Positions 3 through 5,484 of a stretch of 5,484 nucleotides of DNA are shown here, in pieces (positions within the stretch are counted from its first letter, which is position 1; each line of letters opens with the position of its first letter). The stretch is from the NCBI GenBank assembly GCA_021808665.1, contig JAKBBA010000196.1, positions 1 through 5,484 on the forward strand, read 5' to 3'. The notes beneath the pieces were generated by a model. That model was not told the origin of the DNA. It made no database searches and was given only the letters and a program-made list of their open reading frames with translations. The DNA is from Actinomycetes bacterium (GTDB lineage: Bacteria; Actinomycetota; Acidimicrobiia; Acidimicrobiales; Palsa-688). The translations under genes were made by a program, and so were the position numbers.

Positions 3-206
3 CAACCGAAGCTCGCCAACATTCGCCGCCACGACCTCCGCCACGCCGCCTGCTCCTGGTGGCTTCGCGAAGGTGTCGACGCCGTCGTCTGCCAGCGCTG
101 GTCCGGGCACAAAACGCTCTCGGTATTCCTCGACATCTACCAAGGTGTAGCACCCGGCCGCGAAAGCGAAGGGGTAAGCCGACTCGCAGCCAGCCTCACC
201 AACTGA
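3..206 (+). CDS. Tyrosine recombinase (phage/island integrase), C-terminal fragment
   Basis: Only the last 67 residues of this site-specific DNA recombinase are inside the window; the gene starts further left. The frame reads through the catalytic C-terminus: HDLRH at residues 10-14 of the fragment (box II His and Arg), the pair GH at 35-36 inside WSGHKTLSVF (second catalytic His), and the nucleophilic Tyr at 46 in LDIYQG. The spacing Arg-23-His-10-Tyr fits the family; XerD has 23 and 9, and 10 is common in phage integrases. These enzymes cut and rejoin DNA through a 3'-phosphotyrosine link to integrate or excise an element. The stop is TGA at 204-206. No other phage or conjugation gene is visible, so this could be an island integrase or a prophage remnant. 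The visible catalytic residues are intact, so nothing here shows decay. The family call is secure; the target site is unknown. Confidence 0.93.
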   Translation, partial: QPKLANIRRHDLRHAACSWWLREGVDAVVCQRWSGHKTLSVFLDIYQGVAPGRESEGVSRLAASLTN

Positions 207-427: not shown

Positions 428-595
428 CTAGGACAACGTGCGCGCTCGGTTGATCACGGCTCCCGCCGCTGCACCGAGGAGGACCAACTCCATTGCGCTC
501 AGCCCCAAGAATGCGGCTTCCTGTTTTGCTAACTGCTGGGCGATCGCTCCAACAGCAACTGCGCCGATGAGTATGAGCCAAGTTTCTTTCTTCAT
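428..595 (-). CDS. Small two-helix membrane protein, 55 aa, function unknown
   Basis: This gene encodes 55 residues starting MKKETWLILIGAVAVG. A positively charged start (two Lys) leads into a hydrophobic helix at about residues 6-20, then a short polar stretch (QQLAKQE) and a second hydrophobic helix at about 28-47. The protein ends in a basic tail (NRAR) before the TAG stop. The layout suggests an inner-membrane hairpin with both ends cytoplasmic. The ATG at 595-593 was chosen over one 60 bases upstream (655-653) because GGAG (609-606, minus strand) sits 10 bases before it, while the upstream ATG has no ribosome binding site and overlaps a -10-like box. No family is recognised. It is transcribed divergently from the MerR-like gene at 718 and shares its promoter region, so the two may be co-regulated. 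Holin-like, toxin-like or envelope-sensing roles are possible but unsupported. Confidence 0.6.
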   Translation of the reverse strand: MKKETWLILIGAVAVGAIAQQLAKQEAAFLGLSAMELVLLGAAAGAVINRARTLS

Positions 596-632
596 CTGGA
601 TCTGTCTCCAATCTGCATAGGGGTGAAACACC

Positions 633-675
633 GTCCCGACCTGGGACAATGTCATGATAACCCTGGCTACCTGGG
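633..675. promoter_or_regulatory. Candidate operator region between the divergent genes
   Basis: Three overlapping patterns lie in the gap between the two divergent starts. One is an inverted repeat, GTCCC (633-637) and GGGAC (643-647), with a 5-bp spacer. A second is the dyad GACA-A-TGTC (645-653). The third is a directly repeated 7-mer ACCTGGG at 639-645 and 669-675, exactly 30 bp apart (about three turns). The last dyad adjoins the minus-strand -10-like box at 654-659. A natural candidate to bind is the MerR-like protein encoded next door, since MerR regulators bind dyads in their own promoters, but each pattern alone could be chance. Confidence 0.35.
654..659 (-). promoter_or_regulatory. 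Possible -10 box for the membrane miniprotein gene
   Basis: On the minus strand this reads TATCAT, five of six matches to the TATAAT consensus. It would start a transcript near 647 with a leader of about 50 bases before the ATG at 595. No good -35 box is seen about 17 bases upstream, so the promoter would be weak or activator-dependent. Confidence 0.35.
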
Positions 676-704: not shown

Positions 705-710
705 TAAAGT
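705..710 (+). promoter_or_regulatory. Possible -10 box giving a leaderless mRNA
   Basis: TAAAGT fits the TANNNT pattern of actinobacterial -10 elements and is preceded by TG two bases upstream (TGTAAAGT overlaps an extended -10 shape). The ATG at 718 follows with 7 intervening bases, which is where transcription would begin, and there is no good ribosome binding site before that ATG. This suggests a leaderless transcript. No clear -35 box is seen. Confidence 0.4.
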
Positions 711-717
711 GGGACCT

Positions 718-1857
718 ATGCGAAACGGTGTGGACGGTACGGAGACCGCGGAGGTTTTGCTACGTGCCGCTGTGGCTGCCGGGTACTCGGTTAGCCGCGA
801 CCAGTTGGTGCGGTGGCACCGGACTGGCCTTCTTCCTCGGCCCTCCACCGCCGGTCTTGGACAGGGGCGGGGTACCGTGACTCTTTACACAGTGGGGACT
901 AGTCGGCAGCTGATAGCCCTGTGCGAGATTCGCAAGAGGTACCGCCGCCTCGATGATGCTGGCTGGCTGCTCTGGTGGCAGGGCTACGAGGTTCCAGAGA
1001 TGGTCGTCACCAAGTACGTCCAGAAGGTTGCCAGCCGGTATGTGGATCTGTGGGCGAAGGCCCTCACCCCAGAAGGAACGCCCACAGAGCTGATGGACGA
1101 ACTTCTCGATCAGGCGCACGAAGTACGCTTGGGCAAGACCCTTGGCAGAGTGCGCCGCCGAGTTGGATCTGAAGAGTTTGAGCGTGTACTGGAAGCGATC
1201 CTCGCAGTCGCCGGAGGCGGGGCGGATCAACTCACTGACAGTGAGGTTGCGTTATTAGAGCATGCAACTGCTCTCGACCGAGGTAGGGTCTCGACCCCAG
1301 GCTCACCACAGGGCTGGATCTCCGGAGACTTTCGCGAGACCATAGTCGCCTGTTCGAAGGTCCTTGGTCCATGCAACCTGGCAGCCTTGGCCATCGAATC
1401 CGACATGTCTGCCCTTTGGCAGGCAGCCTCGGAAGTAAAGTCGTTTGCGAGGGTCATCCTTGCCTTTGCCCGTTTAGTTGCGCCGGTAGATCGTTGGGCC
1501 TATGGGTTTGGCATGCTCGGAACGGCTCTGGAAGAGATGCTGGAAAAGCCTGACTCCCAAGCAATGGCTGTCCTCTTCCTGGTTGCCGCCAGAGCAGCGG
1601 GGCTGGGGGATGGAATCGACACAATCACCCACCTGGGGAAAGTTGCTGACCAGATCGCAACAATGTCCGCAGTCTTGGGCGCTATCCGGCAGGAAATTCC
1701 GGGTGCAGCCGAGGCCCTTCCGGAGCGGCTCGTAGCTGCGGCTGCGATACGTCCGGATCGCCAAGCCGAGCTCGCTAAGCGGGTCGGCAAGCTACGAGCT
1801 GATGATCCGGAGGCGATGGATGCGGTCCTCGCTAGGTTCCCCGAGATTCGAACTTGA
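718..1857 (+). CDS. MerR-like winged-helix DNA-binding protein with long C-terminal domain of unknown function
   Basis: The protein has 379 residues if started at ATG 718. Residues about 24-42 (YSVSRDQLVRWHRTGLLPRP) match the MerR-type helix-turn-helix, where a turn, a Trp and a Gly-Leu-Leu-Pro precede the wing. The wing is probably 47-58 (GQGRGTVTLY), followed by a helix at 62-90 with WLLWWQGY, in the place MerR proteins carry their second helical pair. The remaining ~290 residues are mostly helical and unrecognised, with hydrophobic stretches at about 243-273 and 281-296 and two cysteines at 212 and 219. Ordinary MerR regulators are about 110-280 residues, so this is long. GTG 709 is an alternative start (three residues more); a TAG at 697-699 closes the frame above it. 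It probably regulates its own promoter, the divergent membrane gene, and perhaps the helicase operon downstream; this is inferred from position. Ligand and targets are unknown. Confidence 0.85.
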   Translation: MRNGVDGTETAEVLLRAAVAAGYSVSRDQLVRWHRTGLLPRPSTAGLGQGRGTVTLYTVGTSRQLIALCEIRKRYRRLDDAGWLLWWQGYEVPEMVVTKYVQKVASRYVDLWAKALTPEGTPTELMDELLDQAHEVRLGKTLGRVRRRVGSEEFERVLEAILAVAGGGADQLTDSEVALLEHATALDRGRVSTPGSPQGWISGDFRETIVACSKVLGPCNLAALAIESDMSALWQAASEVKSFARVILAFARLVAPVDRWAYGFGMLGTALEEMLEKPDSQAMAVLFLVAARAAGLGDGIDTITHLGKVADQIATMSAVLGAIRQEIPGAAEALPERLVAAAAIRPDRQAELAKRVGKLRADDPEAMDAVLARFPEIRT

Positions 1858-1886
1858 CCGTCAGCCTCCGTCTTCCTACCGATATT

Positions 1887-1902
1887 TGCTGAAATCTCAG
1901 CA
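1887..1902. terminator. Small perfect inverted repeat; weak terminator or operator
   Basis: TGCTGA-AATC-TCAGCA forms a 6-bp perfect stem with a 4-base loop, 29 bases after the MerR-like gene's stop codon. Only TTT follows (1903-1905) and the stem is short, so termination would be inefficient; a 16-bp operator is an equally good reading. Confidence 0.35.
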
Positions 1903-1953
1903 TTTACAAGTAGTCGGGGATTATCAGGAGCAGAGAAACGCGAGGGCGCCGAC

Positions 1954-2094
1954 ATGCCAGTGCCAGCTTGGCGGTACTTGAGGGAGGGTCGATCGAGACA
2001 AGTCGGCTTTCGCCAGCTACTACGACGTGGTCGGATTCTCTTTCACGGATCCTGCGTAAGTGTGCAAACGCAGGCGCCGAACGACAGTCGATAG
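1954..2094 (+). CDS. Possible small basic protein, 46 aa (doubtful)
   Basis: The ORF starts at an ATG with GAGGG seven bases upstream (1942-1946), a good ribosome binding site, and ends at TAG 2092-2094. The product is strongly basic in its middle, with RSRQVGFRQLLRRGRILF at residues 13-30, and has no recognised family. Its 3' part overlaps the inverted repeat at 2051-2074. It could be a small regulatory peptide, a leader peptide whose translation affects that hairpin, or chance. Support is the ribosome binding site and position only. Confidence 0.25.
   Translation: MPVPAWRYLREGRSRQVGFRQLLRRGRILFHGSCVSVQTQAPNDSR
2051..2074 (+). promoter_or_regulatory. 7-bp inverted repeat in the helicase leader
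   Basis: CCTGCGT (2051-2057) is exactly complementary to ACGCAGG (2068-2074) across a 10-base loop. No T-run follows, so it is not an intrinsic terminator. In RNA it would make a GC-rich stem-loop about 110 bases before the helicase start; in DNA the 17-bp centre-to-centre spacing of the arms could suit a dimeric regulator. Confidence 0.4.
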
Positions 2095-2097
2095 CTC

Positions 2098-2187
2098 GTG
2101 AGCGTGGACAAGCTCGCCGCACGTCGCGTAGTCCCAGCTCTGCAATACTTCGTGGTCGTGGCGGAGAGGGGCGGACGGGCCCAATGA
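2098..2187 (+). CDS. Possible 29-codon ORF coupled to the helicase start (doubtful)
   Basis: Starting at GTG 2098 (or GTG 2104), this frame ends in TGA at 2185-2187, overlapping the helicase ATG as ATGA. That overlap is typical of translationally coupled genes. It lies in the same frame as the 46-codon ORF above, separated from it only by a TAG and one codon. There is no good ribosome binding site before either GTG. The stretch PALQYFVVVAERG loosely resembles the start of LysR-type regulators, but the match is too short to mean descent. It is listed because of the ATGA overlap only. Confidence 0.18.
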   Translation: MSVDKLAARRVVPALQYFVVVAERGGRAQ

Positions 2188-5100
2188 GACTCGAAGAGCT
2201 GTTCCCGGGTGTGGTGGTTCGTGGCCTGGTGCCAGACGTCCCGGTGACGGTGGTGGCTAACCGGCCGGCCGGCAAGCAGGCGACGGTGATCACCTACCGC
2301 TCTCCGGACGGCAGCGTCGACGAGGTGGTGGTTTACCGGGCCCAGGAGCCTGACTTGGAGTCCGACGAGGAGTGCCGCCCGTGGTCGTTTACTGCAGACC
2401 CGGCCCTGTTTCGTCTCGCGGCGGAGGCTCGGAGGATTCATCTGGCCTACTTGTTTGACAGCCGGATGGCTATCCACTTGTCCAAGATCGATCCGCTGCC
2501 CCATCAGATCAGCGCGGTGTACGGGGAGATGCTGCCGCGCCAGCCGCTGCGGTTCTGCCTGGCCGACGATCCGGGCGCGGGGAAGACGATCATGGCGGGT
2601 TTATACATTAAGGAGCTGGCCCTTCGAGGTGACATGCAGCGCTGCCTGATCGTGGCTCCGGGTGGCTTGGTGGCCCAGTGGCAGGACGAGCTGGACGACA
2701 AGTTCGGCCTCAGCTTCGACATCCTGACCCGGGATTTGATTGAAGCGTCCCGCACGGGGGATGCTTTTGCTGAGCGCCCGCTGCTGCTGGCCCGCATGGA
2801 CCATCTGTCGCGAAACGATGACCTGGTGGAGAGGCTGGCCCAGACCGATTGGGATCTGGTGGTCGTCGACGAAGCACACCGGATGGCGGCGCATTATTTC
2901 GGCAACGAGGTCAAGGAAACTAAGCGCTACCGGCTGGGGAAAGCTCTCGGCTCAGTGAGTCGCCACTTCCTTTTGATGACTGCGACTCCTCATGCCGGCA
3001 AGGACGAGGACTTCCAGTTGTTCATGGCGCTGCTCGACTCGGACCGCTTCGAGGGCAAACCCCGTGACGGGGTCCATGTGGCCGACACGTCGGATCTGAT
3101 GCGCCGCATGGTCAAGGAGAAGCTGCTCCGCTTCGACGGCCGCCCGCTGTTTCCCGAGCGGCGGGCGTACACCTTGTCCTACGACCTCTCCGACGCCGAG
3201 ATGTTGCTTTATCGCGAGGTCACGGACTATGTCGCCGAGGAGATGGGCCGGGCCGACCAGCTTCTTAGGGAGGGGGAGGGCCGGCGGGGCAACCGGGTGG
3301 GTTTCGCTGTCACGGTCCTTCAGCGCCGTCTGGCTTCTAGTCCCGAGGCTATCTTTCAGTCCCTGTCCCGGCGGCGCAAACGTCTCGAGGACACCGCCCG
3401 GGACCTGAAAGCCCACGCGAGAGGCGGTCGGGTCCCCGCGGAGGCGGCCGGCGGGTCATCGCGGCTGCTCGTAGCCGTGGACGTGGACGCCGAGACCGGC
3501 GAATCCGACATCGACGACCTCGACGGCGAAGAGCTTGAGGAGCTGGAGGAGCGCCTCGTCGACGACGCGACGAACGCCCGCACCTTGGTCGAGCTGGACG
3601 CCGAGATCGCCACGTTGAAACGGTTGGAGGCCCGAGCTGACCAGGTCCGCCAGTCGGGGGTGGACCGCAAGTGGACGGAGCTGCTCGGCTTGTTGGGCGA
3701 CGAGCCGGAGATGTTCGAGCCGGACGGGACTCGTCGCAAGCTGATCGTTTTCACCGAGCACCGTGACACGCTCAACTATCTGGTCCGCAAGCTCACCGCC
3801 TATCTCGGCAGGGCCGAAGCGGTGGTGGCGATCCACGGCGGCGTCGCTCGCGAGGAGCGGCGGGTTGTCCAGGAGCGCTTCACGACCGACGCCTCCTGTC
3901 AGATTCTGGTGGCGACTGACGCGGCGGGGGAGGGCTTGAACCTTCAGCGGGCTCATCTGTTGGTCAACTACGACCTGCCGTGGAACCCGAACCGGATCGA
4001 GCAGCGCTTCGGCCGGGTGCACCGCATCGGCCAGAGCGAGGTGTGTCACTTGTGGAACCTGGTGGCGACCGAGACCCGCGAGGGCATGGTCTACGCGAAG
4101 CTTCTGGCCAAGCTCGACGAGATGCGCGAAACCCTCGGCGTCGACCAGGTTTTCGACGTCCTCGGCGACGCCCTGCCCGGCCAGGAGCTGCGCCAACTGC
4201 TGATCGAGGCGATCCGCTACGGCAACCAGCCTGAGACCAGGGCGAAGCTGGACCGGGTCATCGACGAGCGCGTCGGCGAAGGCCTGGCCGAGCTGATACG
4301 CGACCACGCCCTCACCTCCGAGGTGCTCTCCGCAGCAGACTTGGAGCGGCTACGGGCCGACATGCTCGAAGCTCAGGCCCGACGCCTGCAGCCCGGCTAC
4401 GTCCAGGCGTGGTTCGCAGACGCCTTCGCCCGTCTCGGCGGCCGGATGGCCGAACGTGAGCCCGGCCGTTTCGAGATCACCTTCGTACCTGCCGACATCC
4501 GCAACCGGGACCGCCAGATCGGCGTCGGAGCGCCGGTCATGCCCCGCTACCAGCGTGTCACCTTCGAGAAGGCACTTATGCGGGTCGACGCCAAACCGCC
4601 GGCCGGGTTGTTAGCCCCCGGCCATCCACTCCTCGAAGCGGTTATCGACCTGATATCTGAGCGTCACGGCCCTCTCATCAAGGAGGGCGCGGTCCTCGTC
4701 GACGACGCCGATGCGGGCAGCGGGGCGCGGGTCCTGGTGTTCCTCGAGCATGCCGTCATCGACGCCCGCACCGAGAGGTCCGGTAAGCGGCGTACGGTGT
4801 CGCGCCGTTTCGAGTTCGTCGAGATCGCCGAGTCTGGCGACCCGCGCCCCGCCGGTTACGCCCCCTACCTCGACGCGCGCCCCCCGACTACCGAGGAGGC
4901 GCCGGTCATCGCCGAGCTGGTCCAACGCATGGCCTGGCTGGGCGGCAACCTGGACGTCCGGGCCGGTGACTACGGCATCGAAGTACTCGCCGCCGAGCAT
5001 CTGGCCGAGGTCCGCGGCCACACGCTGGAAAGGGTCGCCAAGGTGCGCGCCGCGGTGCATGCCCGTCTCACCAAAGAGATCGGCTACTGGGATCACCGCG

Positions 5101-5484
5101 CCGCCGCCCTCGACCTGCAAGCGCAGGCCGGAAAGACGCCCCGCATGAACCCCGACCGGGCCGAAGCGCGCGCCGAGGAACTGCGGCGGAGGCTCGCCGC
5201 GCGGATGGCCGACTTGGACCGCGAAGCCCAACTCGCCTCGCAGCCTCCCCTCGTCGTCGGCGGCGCGCTCGTCCTGCCCGCCGGTCTGCTCCGCCAAGCC
5301 GCCGGCCTCCCCGCGCCGCCCGCGCCCTCCCACACGGTCGACACCGCTGGCGTGGAGCGCCGCGCCGTCGACGCCGTCCTGGCCGCCGAGGCGGCCCTCG
5401 GCAACAGTGCGGTCGAGATGGCCCACAACCATCCCGGCTACGACATCCGCTCCACCCGCCCCGACCGCCAGGTCAACTTCATCG
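2184..5484 (+). CDS. SNF2/RapA-like SF2 helicase with DUF3883-type C-terminus (DrmD-like), 3' end outside the window
   Basis: The frame is open for 1100 codons and runs off the window. It encodes an ATP-dependent DNA translocase of superfamily 2. Motifs in order: PLPHQ 104-108; Walker A variant DDPGAGKT 128-135 (Lys134); motif Ia IVAPGGLVAQW 156-166; DEAH 229-232; motif III TATPH 266-270; motif IV around KLIVFTEHRDT 519-; motif V TDAAGEGLNLQ 578-588; motif VI QRFGRVHRIGQ 607-617 with both arginine positions. A small domain (1-60) precedes the core, and an acidic, coiled-coil-like insert (about 434-505) separates the two RecA lobes. From 1057 the sequence resembles the DUF3883/NOV domain, with PGYDIRS at 1084-1090. 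ATG 2184 is the first start in frame for at least 150 bases; a weak GGA lies 8 bases upstream. Related helicases (DrmD of class 1 DISARM and DUF1156/DUF499 clusters) belong to anti-phage systems. The role here is inferred, as the partners lie outside the window. Confidence 0.95.
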   Translation, partial: MRLEELFPGVVVRGLVPDVPVTVVANRPAGKQATVITYRSPDGSVDEVVVYRAQEPDLESDEECRPWSFTADPALFRLAAEARRIHLAYLFDSRMAIHLSKIDPLPHQISAVYGEMLPRQPLRFCLADDPGAGKTIMAGLYIKELALRGDMQRCLIVAPGGLVAQWQDELDDKFGLSFDILTRDLIEASRTGDAFAERPLLLARMDHLSRNDDLVERLAQTDWDLVVVDEAHRMAAHYFGNEVKETKRYRLGKALGSVSRHFLLMTATPHAGKDEDFQLFMALLDSDRFEGKPRDGVHVADTSDLMRRMVKEKLLRFDGRPLFPERRAYTLSYDLSDAEMLLYREVTDYVAEEMGRADQLLREGEGRRGNRVGFAVTVLQRRLASSPEAIFQSLSRRRKRLEDTARDLKAHARGGRVPAEAAGGSSRLLVAVDVDAETGESDIDDLDGEELEELEERLVDDATNARTLVELDAEIATLKRLEARADQVRQSGVDRKWTELLGLLGDEPEMFEPDGTRRKLIVFTEHRDTLNYLVRKLTAYLGRAEAVVAIHGGVAREERRVVQERFTTDASCQILVATDAAGEGLNLQRAHLLVNYDLPWNPNRIEQRFGRVHRIGQSEVCHLWNLVATETREGMVYAKLLAKLDEMRETLGVDQVFDVLGDALPGQELRQLLIEAIRYGNQPETRAKLDRVIDERVGEGLAELIRDHALTSEVLSAADLERLRADMLEAQARRLQPGYVQAWFADAFARLGGRMAEREPGRFEITFVPADIRNRDRQIGVGAPVMPRYQRVTFEKALMRVDAKPPAGLLAPGHPLLEAVIDLISERHGPLIKEGAVLVDDADAGSGARVLVFLEHAVIDARTERSGKRRTVSRRFEFVEIAESGDPRPAGYAPYLDARPPTTEEAPVIAELVQRMAWLGGNLDVRAGDYGIEVLAAEHLAEVRGHTLERVAKVRAAVHARLTKEIGYWDHRAAALDLQAQAGKTPRMNPDRAEARAEELRRRLAARMADLDREAQLASQPPLVVGGALVLPAGLLRQAAGLPAPPAPSHTVDTAGVERRAVDAVLAAEAALGNSAVEMAHNHPGYDIRSTRPDRQVNFI

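Follow-up and report, generated by a model that had tools for sequence, protein, structure and literature searches.

The locus studied here raises two linked questions: to which defence system does its truncated helicase gene belong, and is the gene in front of it a regulator of that system? The window, meaning the whole stretch that was analysed, comprises 5,484 nucleotides on a contig from an Actinomycetes bacterium (JAKBBA010000196.1), and an original prediction had read the helicase as DrmD-like, that is, as a relative of the helicase of class 1 DISARM. The data presented below assign it with high confidence to HmaA, the helicase-nuclease of the Hma operon (Type-1 BREX-related, with DUF1156 and DUF499 partners), the source organism of the operon being probably an actinobacterium. 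A position at the head of an anti-phage operon, as originally predicted, fits this assignment. The Hma system is already described and only the present copy is new; the result adds one Hma locus and corrects the DISARM reading to Hma. The system itself is ordinary, and the possible regulator encoded upstream is the more notable part.

Scored against the PADLOC models, the window helicase reached 1441.4 bits with HmaA, covering residues 1-1093 of its 1100, 410 bits with DrmD (best model), 336 bits with BrxHI and 267.5 bits with BrxHII. The scale was calibrated with nine comparison proteins at a match limit of 1e-60. With the HmaA profile, the Hma helicases of two relatives (L002 and L008) gave 1535 and 1629 bits, a Planktothrix helicase from a DUF1156 locus gave 697 bits, and four further helicases from BREX, DUF1156/DUF499 or unnamed loci gave 304-427 bits. 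E. coli RapA had no PADLOC match at this limit. Since other helicases reach 304-427 bits, a score of a few hundred bits indicates kinship only, and the 1441 bits of the window helicase are therefore far beyond that level.

The kinship of BREX and BREX-related systems has been published (PMC12839542, in the part available), and the BrxHI and BrxHII scores (336 and 268 bits) would be in line with a helicase from BREX itself or from another DUF499-type BREX-related subtype. Such an origin is nevertheless very improbable. A helicase from an annotated BREX-5 locus gave 1928 bits with BrxHII and 358 bits with HmaA, the opposite of the pattern in the window helicase, and the tree described below places the latter apart from the BREX helicases. 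In addition, Type-2 helicases are reported without a C-terminal nuclease in the available part of PMC12839542, whereas the window helicase has the start of a NOV_C domain.

A genome scan gave at least 583 confirmed relatives, and the best 80 loci were kept for analysis. The tree was built from 32 proteins, namely 20 from these 80 loci, the window helicase and 11 others. The window helicase paired with its counterpart in locus L001 (support 100/100), and both fell within a ten-protein group from Actinomycetota and Dormiibacterota (100/99), nested in turn in a 21-protein HmaA clade (100/99). A separate pair (100/100) was formed by two true DrmD proteins, both from genome G001, and DrmD, the BREX helicases and RapA all stood outside the HmaA clade.

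In class 1 DISARM, the helicase DrmD acts together with DrmA, DrmB, DrmC and a methylase. Among the PADLOC families it ranks second for the window protein, with which it shares the superfamily 2 (SF2) branch and the domain order. However, the NCBIfam DrmD model gave 353.1 bits against a cut-off of 610, the window helicase lies outside the true DrmD pair, and no DISARM partner was recognised at E 0.001 in the products of the three genes that follow hmaA in L001. The DrmD identity was rejected on the NCBIfam cut-off, the PADLOC scores and the tree, and its probability is judged to be minimal. RapA was also rejected, on its NCBIfam score (160.4 bits against a cut-off of 576) and its separate position in the tree. 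The profile search and the tree, both proposed as checks in the original prediction, thus assign HmaA and not DrmD.

The reading frame of hmaA runs for 1100 codons from ATG 2184 to the right window edge with no stop. The G+C content at codon positions 1/2/3 is 0.74/0.44/0.85, as in a real gene of G+C-rich DNA, and the helicase gene is real. The same frame is already open from TTG 1968. Since the match begins at residue 1, 2 or 3, numbered from ATG 2184, in 78 of the 80 relatives' loci (the contigs of the other two begin within hmaA), ATG 2184 is the likely start. From the frame in L001, which has 1090 residues starting at about residue 101, the full-length protein was estimated at about 1190 residues.

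The SF2 motifs, located by plain text search of the translation, were all found intact, as had been claimed (Table 1); ADDPGAGKT and QRFGRVHRIGQ are taken here to be motifs I and VI. Four Pfam helicase families matched above cut-off: Helicase_C (7.2e-23), ResIII (1.1e-11), SNF2-rel_dom (1.6e-11) and DEAD (5.2e-8). As for the DUF3883-like end that had been claimed, its start is present, with positions 1-45 of the 91 of NOV_C aligned to helicase residues 1057-1100, but only this first half lies in the window and its score (E 0.051, 14.1 bits) is below the cut-off of 22.1 bits. L001 has the whole domain (E 4.9e-19, 68.6 bits against the same cut-off). A text comparison showed that the window sequence stops just past GYDI...FI, where L001 continues with EVKGR. 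We infer that this NOV_C domain is the PD-(D/E)XK nuclease of PMC12839542.

Table 1. Positions of the features in the window, with the evidence for each.
Feature	Position	Strand	Basis
Tyrosine recombinase (integrase), C-terminal end, off left edge; neighbour, not system part	3-206	+	Pfam Phage_integrase
Open frame, 75 residues, hydrophobic stretch	428-655	-	weak NCBIfam matches only, no Pfam match
Rare 382-residue protein, candidate operon regulator	709-1857	+	relatives, model, neighbourhood
Intergenic gap between MerR-type gene and hmaA, possible operator/promoter	1858-2183	.	326 bases
hmaA, SF2 Swi2/Snf2-type helicase, C-terminal end beyond window edge	2184-5484	+	open frame; HmaA profile; tree
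LPHQ	2496-2507	+	text search
Helicase core, motif I to motif VI	2562-4034	+	text search; Pfam ResIII, SNF2-rel_dom, Helicase_C
ADDPGAGKT	2562-2588	+	text search
DEAH	2868-2879	+	text search
TATPH	2979-2993	+	text search
IVFTEHRDT	3744-3770	+	text search
ATDAAGEGLNLQ	3912-3947	+	text search
QRFGRVHRIGQ	4002-4034	+	text search
NOV_C (DUF3883-like) domain, first half	5352-5483	+	Pfam, below cut-off

The partner genes were studied in the relatives. L001, the closest among the matches listed (86% protein identity), is an 8.7-kb contig that starts inside hmaA. Its gene order is hmaA (start missing), a 391-residue AAA_16 ATPase, HmaB and HmaC, the last cut off by the contig's end after 507 residues. 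HmaB was recognised with 1074 bits by PADLOC and a DUF1156 match at E 1.2e-32, and HmaC with 449 bits and the domains HEPN_Swt1 (an N-terminal HEPN) and DUF499. Models of DrmA, DrmB, DrmC and phospholipase D (PLD) had no match at E 0.001 among the products of these three genes behind hmaA. Among the best 80 loci, HmaB lies downstream of hmaA in 67 and HmaC in 54. An annotated plasmid of [Kitasatospora] papulosa also carries a helicase, DUF1156 and DUF499; plasmid records matching hmaA amount to 667, all below 60% identity, and viral contigs gave two distant relatives of 50% and 45% identity.

Two sets of partners had been predicted to the right of the helicase. The one with DrmA/DrmB and PLD proteins was not found in the three genes behind hmaA of L001, while the DUF1156 methyltransferase and the DUF499 ATPase were found, in relatives only. 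Neither a neighbourhood lacking all such partners nor a placement with housekeeping RapA was observed, the partners having been checked in the relatives. As a separate observation, the genome of the closest relative (G001) also encodes two proteins above the DrmD cut-off, L091 (1260 bits) and L095 (1009 bits); DISARM and Hma coexist in that genome.

Several points weigh against assignment of the window to an Hma operon. The window ends within hmaA and its own partner genes lie beyond the right edge, so they were not seen. L001 has the additional AAA_16 ATPase gene (L001:3308-4483) between hmaA and hmaB, and the open frames of the 79 remaining loci include no relative of it. Three loci have no HmaB despite the available sequence beyond the helicase (3.7 kb in L061, 5.1 kb in L059 and 9.7 kb in L003), and ten others also lack it, with less than 1.5 kb beyond the helicase in each. 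The 80 loci are themselves the best of the at least 583 confirmed relatives. In the tree, several outgroup branches are long, E. coli RapA being the longest, and the mutual order of the outgroups is unsure. Finally, the anti-phage activity of Hma rests on a single experimental report (Liu et al. 2024, cited in the available part of PMC12839542).

A solitary or rearranged hmaA with different partners, and thus a new system type, would agree with the unseen partners, with the three loci that have enough downstream sequence and no HmaB, and with the frequent filling of the hmaA-hmaB gap by other genes. Since HmaB is kept in 67 of the 80 relatives, including the one with 86% identity, such an arrangement is held to be very unlikely, and an ordinary Hma operon is preferred. 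L003 also has a second frame similar to helicases ahead of hmaA.

Hma was named in 2021 from 1,638 three-gene operons in 26 phyla, often accompanied by Septu (PMC8565338); the phage tests in the available part of that paper concern other systems. The PADLOC definition comprises the helicase HmaA, the methylase HmaB and the ATPase HmaC. The window matches HmaA and its relatives have HmaB and HmaC behind it, but the nearest relative differs by the ATPase gene that separates hmaA from hmaB, and the window by the MerR-type gene ahead of hmaA. HmaB appears as a 5-methylcytosine (m5C) methylase in the available part of PMC8565338, whereas PADLOC's own model is a DNA-adenine methylase. The same tripartite system is called Type-1 BREX-related (BR), or DUF499-centred BR, in PMC12839542, where, in the part available, the methylase is treated as N6-adenine. 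That part describes a helicase with a C-terminal nuclease, a DUF1156 N6-methylase and a DUF499 ATPase often with HEPN. The helicase layout is given there as TUDOR, Swi2/Snf2 core, inactive nuclease and alpha+beta domain, with an active C-terminal PD-(D/E)XK nuclease in 79% of taxa.

A probable mechanism for HmaA, HmaB and HmaC was inferred from published work on this family. In it, HmaB would mark the host's own DNA by adenine methylation, and the ATPase HmaC, which has an N-terminal HEPN domain in the nearest relative, would help to recognise unmarked foreign DNA. HmaA would translocate along this unmarked DNA and its C-terminal nuclease domain would cut it, while the HEPN domain of HmaC may contribute a suicidal RNase.

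The spacing between hmaA and hmaB was evaluated by a crude open-frame count in the 67 loci with HmaB, being above 500 bases in 42 and at most 200 bases in 25. In L034, and probably also in L060, the stretch between both genes is a helicase fragment and not an insert. When the 54 loci with all three genes were considered, the A-B gap exceeded 500 bases in 33, the B-C gap in 15, and both in 14. Domains were searched in 31 of the 89 frames inserted at the hmaA-hmaB junction, with matches to AAA_21 (7), HATPase_c_4 (7), SLFN_AlbA_2 (5), GmrSD_N (3), Sacsin (3), SAVED (1) and DncV-like (1). Other defence-type genes (Schlafen-type, AAA/OLD-like ATPases, GmrSD, Sacsin-like and CBASS-type) are often present at this junction. 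Auxiliary nucleases within or near Type-1 BREX-related loci have already been reported (PMC12839542, in the part available).

The gene upstream of hmaA starts at GTG 709, or at ATG 718 as in P0001. For the DNA-binding regulator claimed at this place, the product had no Pfam match at E 0.1, and only structure prediction supports a MerR-type winged helix at about residues 9-97, followed by a long C-terminal part predicted to be all-helical. The first model, from six sequences, had a predicted local distance difference test (pLDDT) score of 48 and its fold search gave one weak MerR row only. The second, from 17 sequences, reached a pLDDT of 81, and MerR structures topped its VIA-align list. No fold match stood out for the helical C-terminal part, although VIA-align barely tested it. 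Five relatives were found in the database and nine with a profile; in two family members, MerR_1 matched below cut-off (L119, E 0.0017, and L120, E 0.0042). CvkR (PDB 7xn2; PMC9938897, in the part available), a MerR-type protein that regulates a CRISPR-associated transposon, has 148 residues compared with 382 here, with no counterpart to the long helical part.

The family profile was applied to the 12,054 open frames in 82 loci; of up to 82 loci, 72 have at least 600 bases before hmaA. The sole match was L004:9030-9992 (E 2.9e-8), a gene directly before hmaA whose stop overlaps the hmaA start. In a sample of 395 genomes from the class to which G001 belongs, the MerR-type family was present in 7 and HmaA (E 1e-150) in 30. 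Two of these seven members (L119 and L121) immediately precede hmaA, in the same orientation. In L119, from genome G341, the MerR-type gene occupies two frames and lies about 1.7 kb ahead of the HmaA match, which hmaB and hmaC follow. L121 (G001:C14) has 97% DNA identity to L004 over 8.5 kb, and as near copies both were counted once as the same case. The family therefore stands upstream of hmaA in three lineages, namely the window, L004/L121 and L119. Since no family member was present in another 31 upstream regions of hmaA from the class (five of them shorter than 1 kb), the link is only occasional.

On the predicted fold and the recurring neighbourhood, the likeliest reading, favoured by a modest preference, is that the gene at 709-1857 is a regulator of the Hma operon, whose MerR-type product would bind DNA near the operon and control its expression. 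The literature searched yielded no description of a regulator of MerR type for Hma; the word 'MerR' is absent from PMC12839542, whose available part names no operon regulator. The gene before hmaA is accordingly a concrete candidate where the available Hma/BR literature names none. If it is the regulator, the control of Hma would be tied to proteins found beside Cas1-type genes.

That the gene is unrelated to the operon, being cargo of an integrase-bearing element and there by chance, is a serious possibility, though held at somewhat less than even chance. The gap in front of hmaA has neither a sigma-70-type site, this pattern and inverted repeats being the only signals searched, nor an inverted repeat beyond chance, the best one being equalled in 44 of 200 shuffles. 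The 31 upstream stretches with no family member point the same way, as do the 11 of the 13 other family places that are not beside hmaA. Against mere chance, both the family (7/395) and HmaA (30/395) are rare, yet two of the seven members immediately precede an hmaA gene of the same orientation, and the only profile match in the 82 loci adjoins hmaA. Regulation of the Hma operon thus stays the preferred explanation for this gene.

The 13 family places outside L004 and the window (L115-L121 and L190-L195) comprise 2 beside hmaA, 5 immediately next to a Cas1-like gene and 6 beside neither. The Cas1-like neighbour was identified with Pfam PF01867 in four cases and by resemblance to L190 in L191. 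The Cas1-adjoining members are distant ones, at L190:7428-10073, L191:5680-8397, L192:7553-10035, L195:3340-6176 and L118:4928-7556. In L190, a nearby protein passes DNA_pol_B marginally (23.4 bits, cut-off 23). These Cas1-adjoining neighbourhoods, from Actinomycetota, look like casposon-like elements. Tentatively, the gene at 709-1857 might belong to a small undescribed family of MerR-type switches with a long all-helical, perhaps sensory C-terminal part. This family would have been recruited repeatedly before Hma operons in Actinomycetota and would elsewhere serve Cas1/PolB (casposon-like) elements. If true, a mobile element and a defence operon of restriction-like kind would be linked by one regulator family.

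Regulator-like neighbours of hmaA unrelated to the MerR type were also observed. The genes at L010:8835-9944 and L006:9365-9973, each immediately ahead of hmaA, encode an IrrE/M78 peptidase domain, to which an N-terminal HTH_3 is added in L010.

With respect to the other features of the window, the frame on the minus strand between the integrase end and the MerR-type gene may be a small membrane protein or a chance frame. A tRNA, looked for as an attachment site, was not found in the window. The integrase fragment expected upstream was confirmed by a narrow pass of Phage_integrase (28.1 bits against a cut-off of 27.1), and DNA similar to it (75-83%), which suggests that the host belongs to the lineage of G001, is present in 5 of the 98 relatives of G001.

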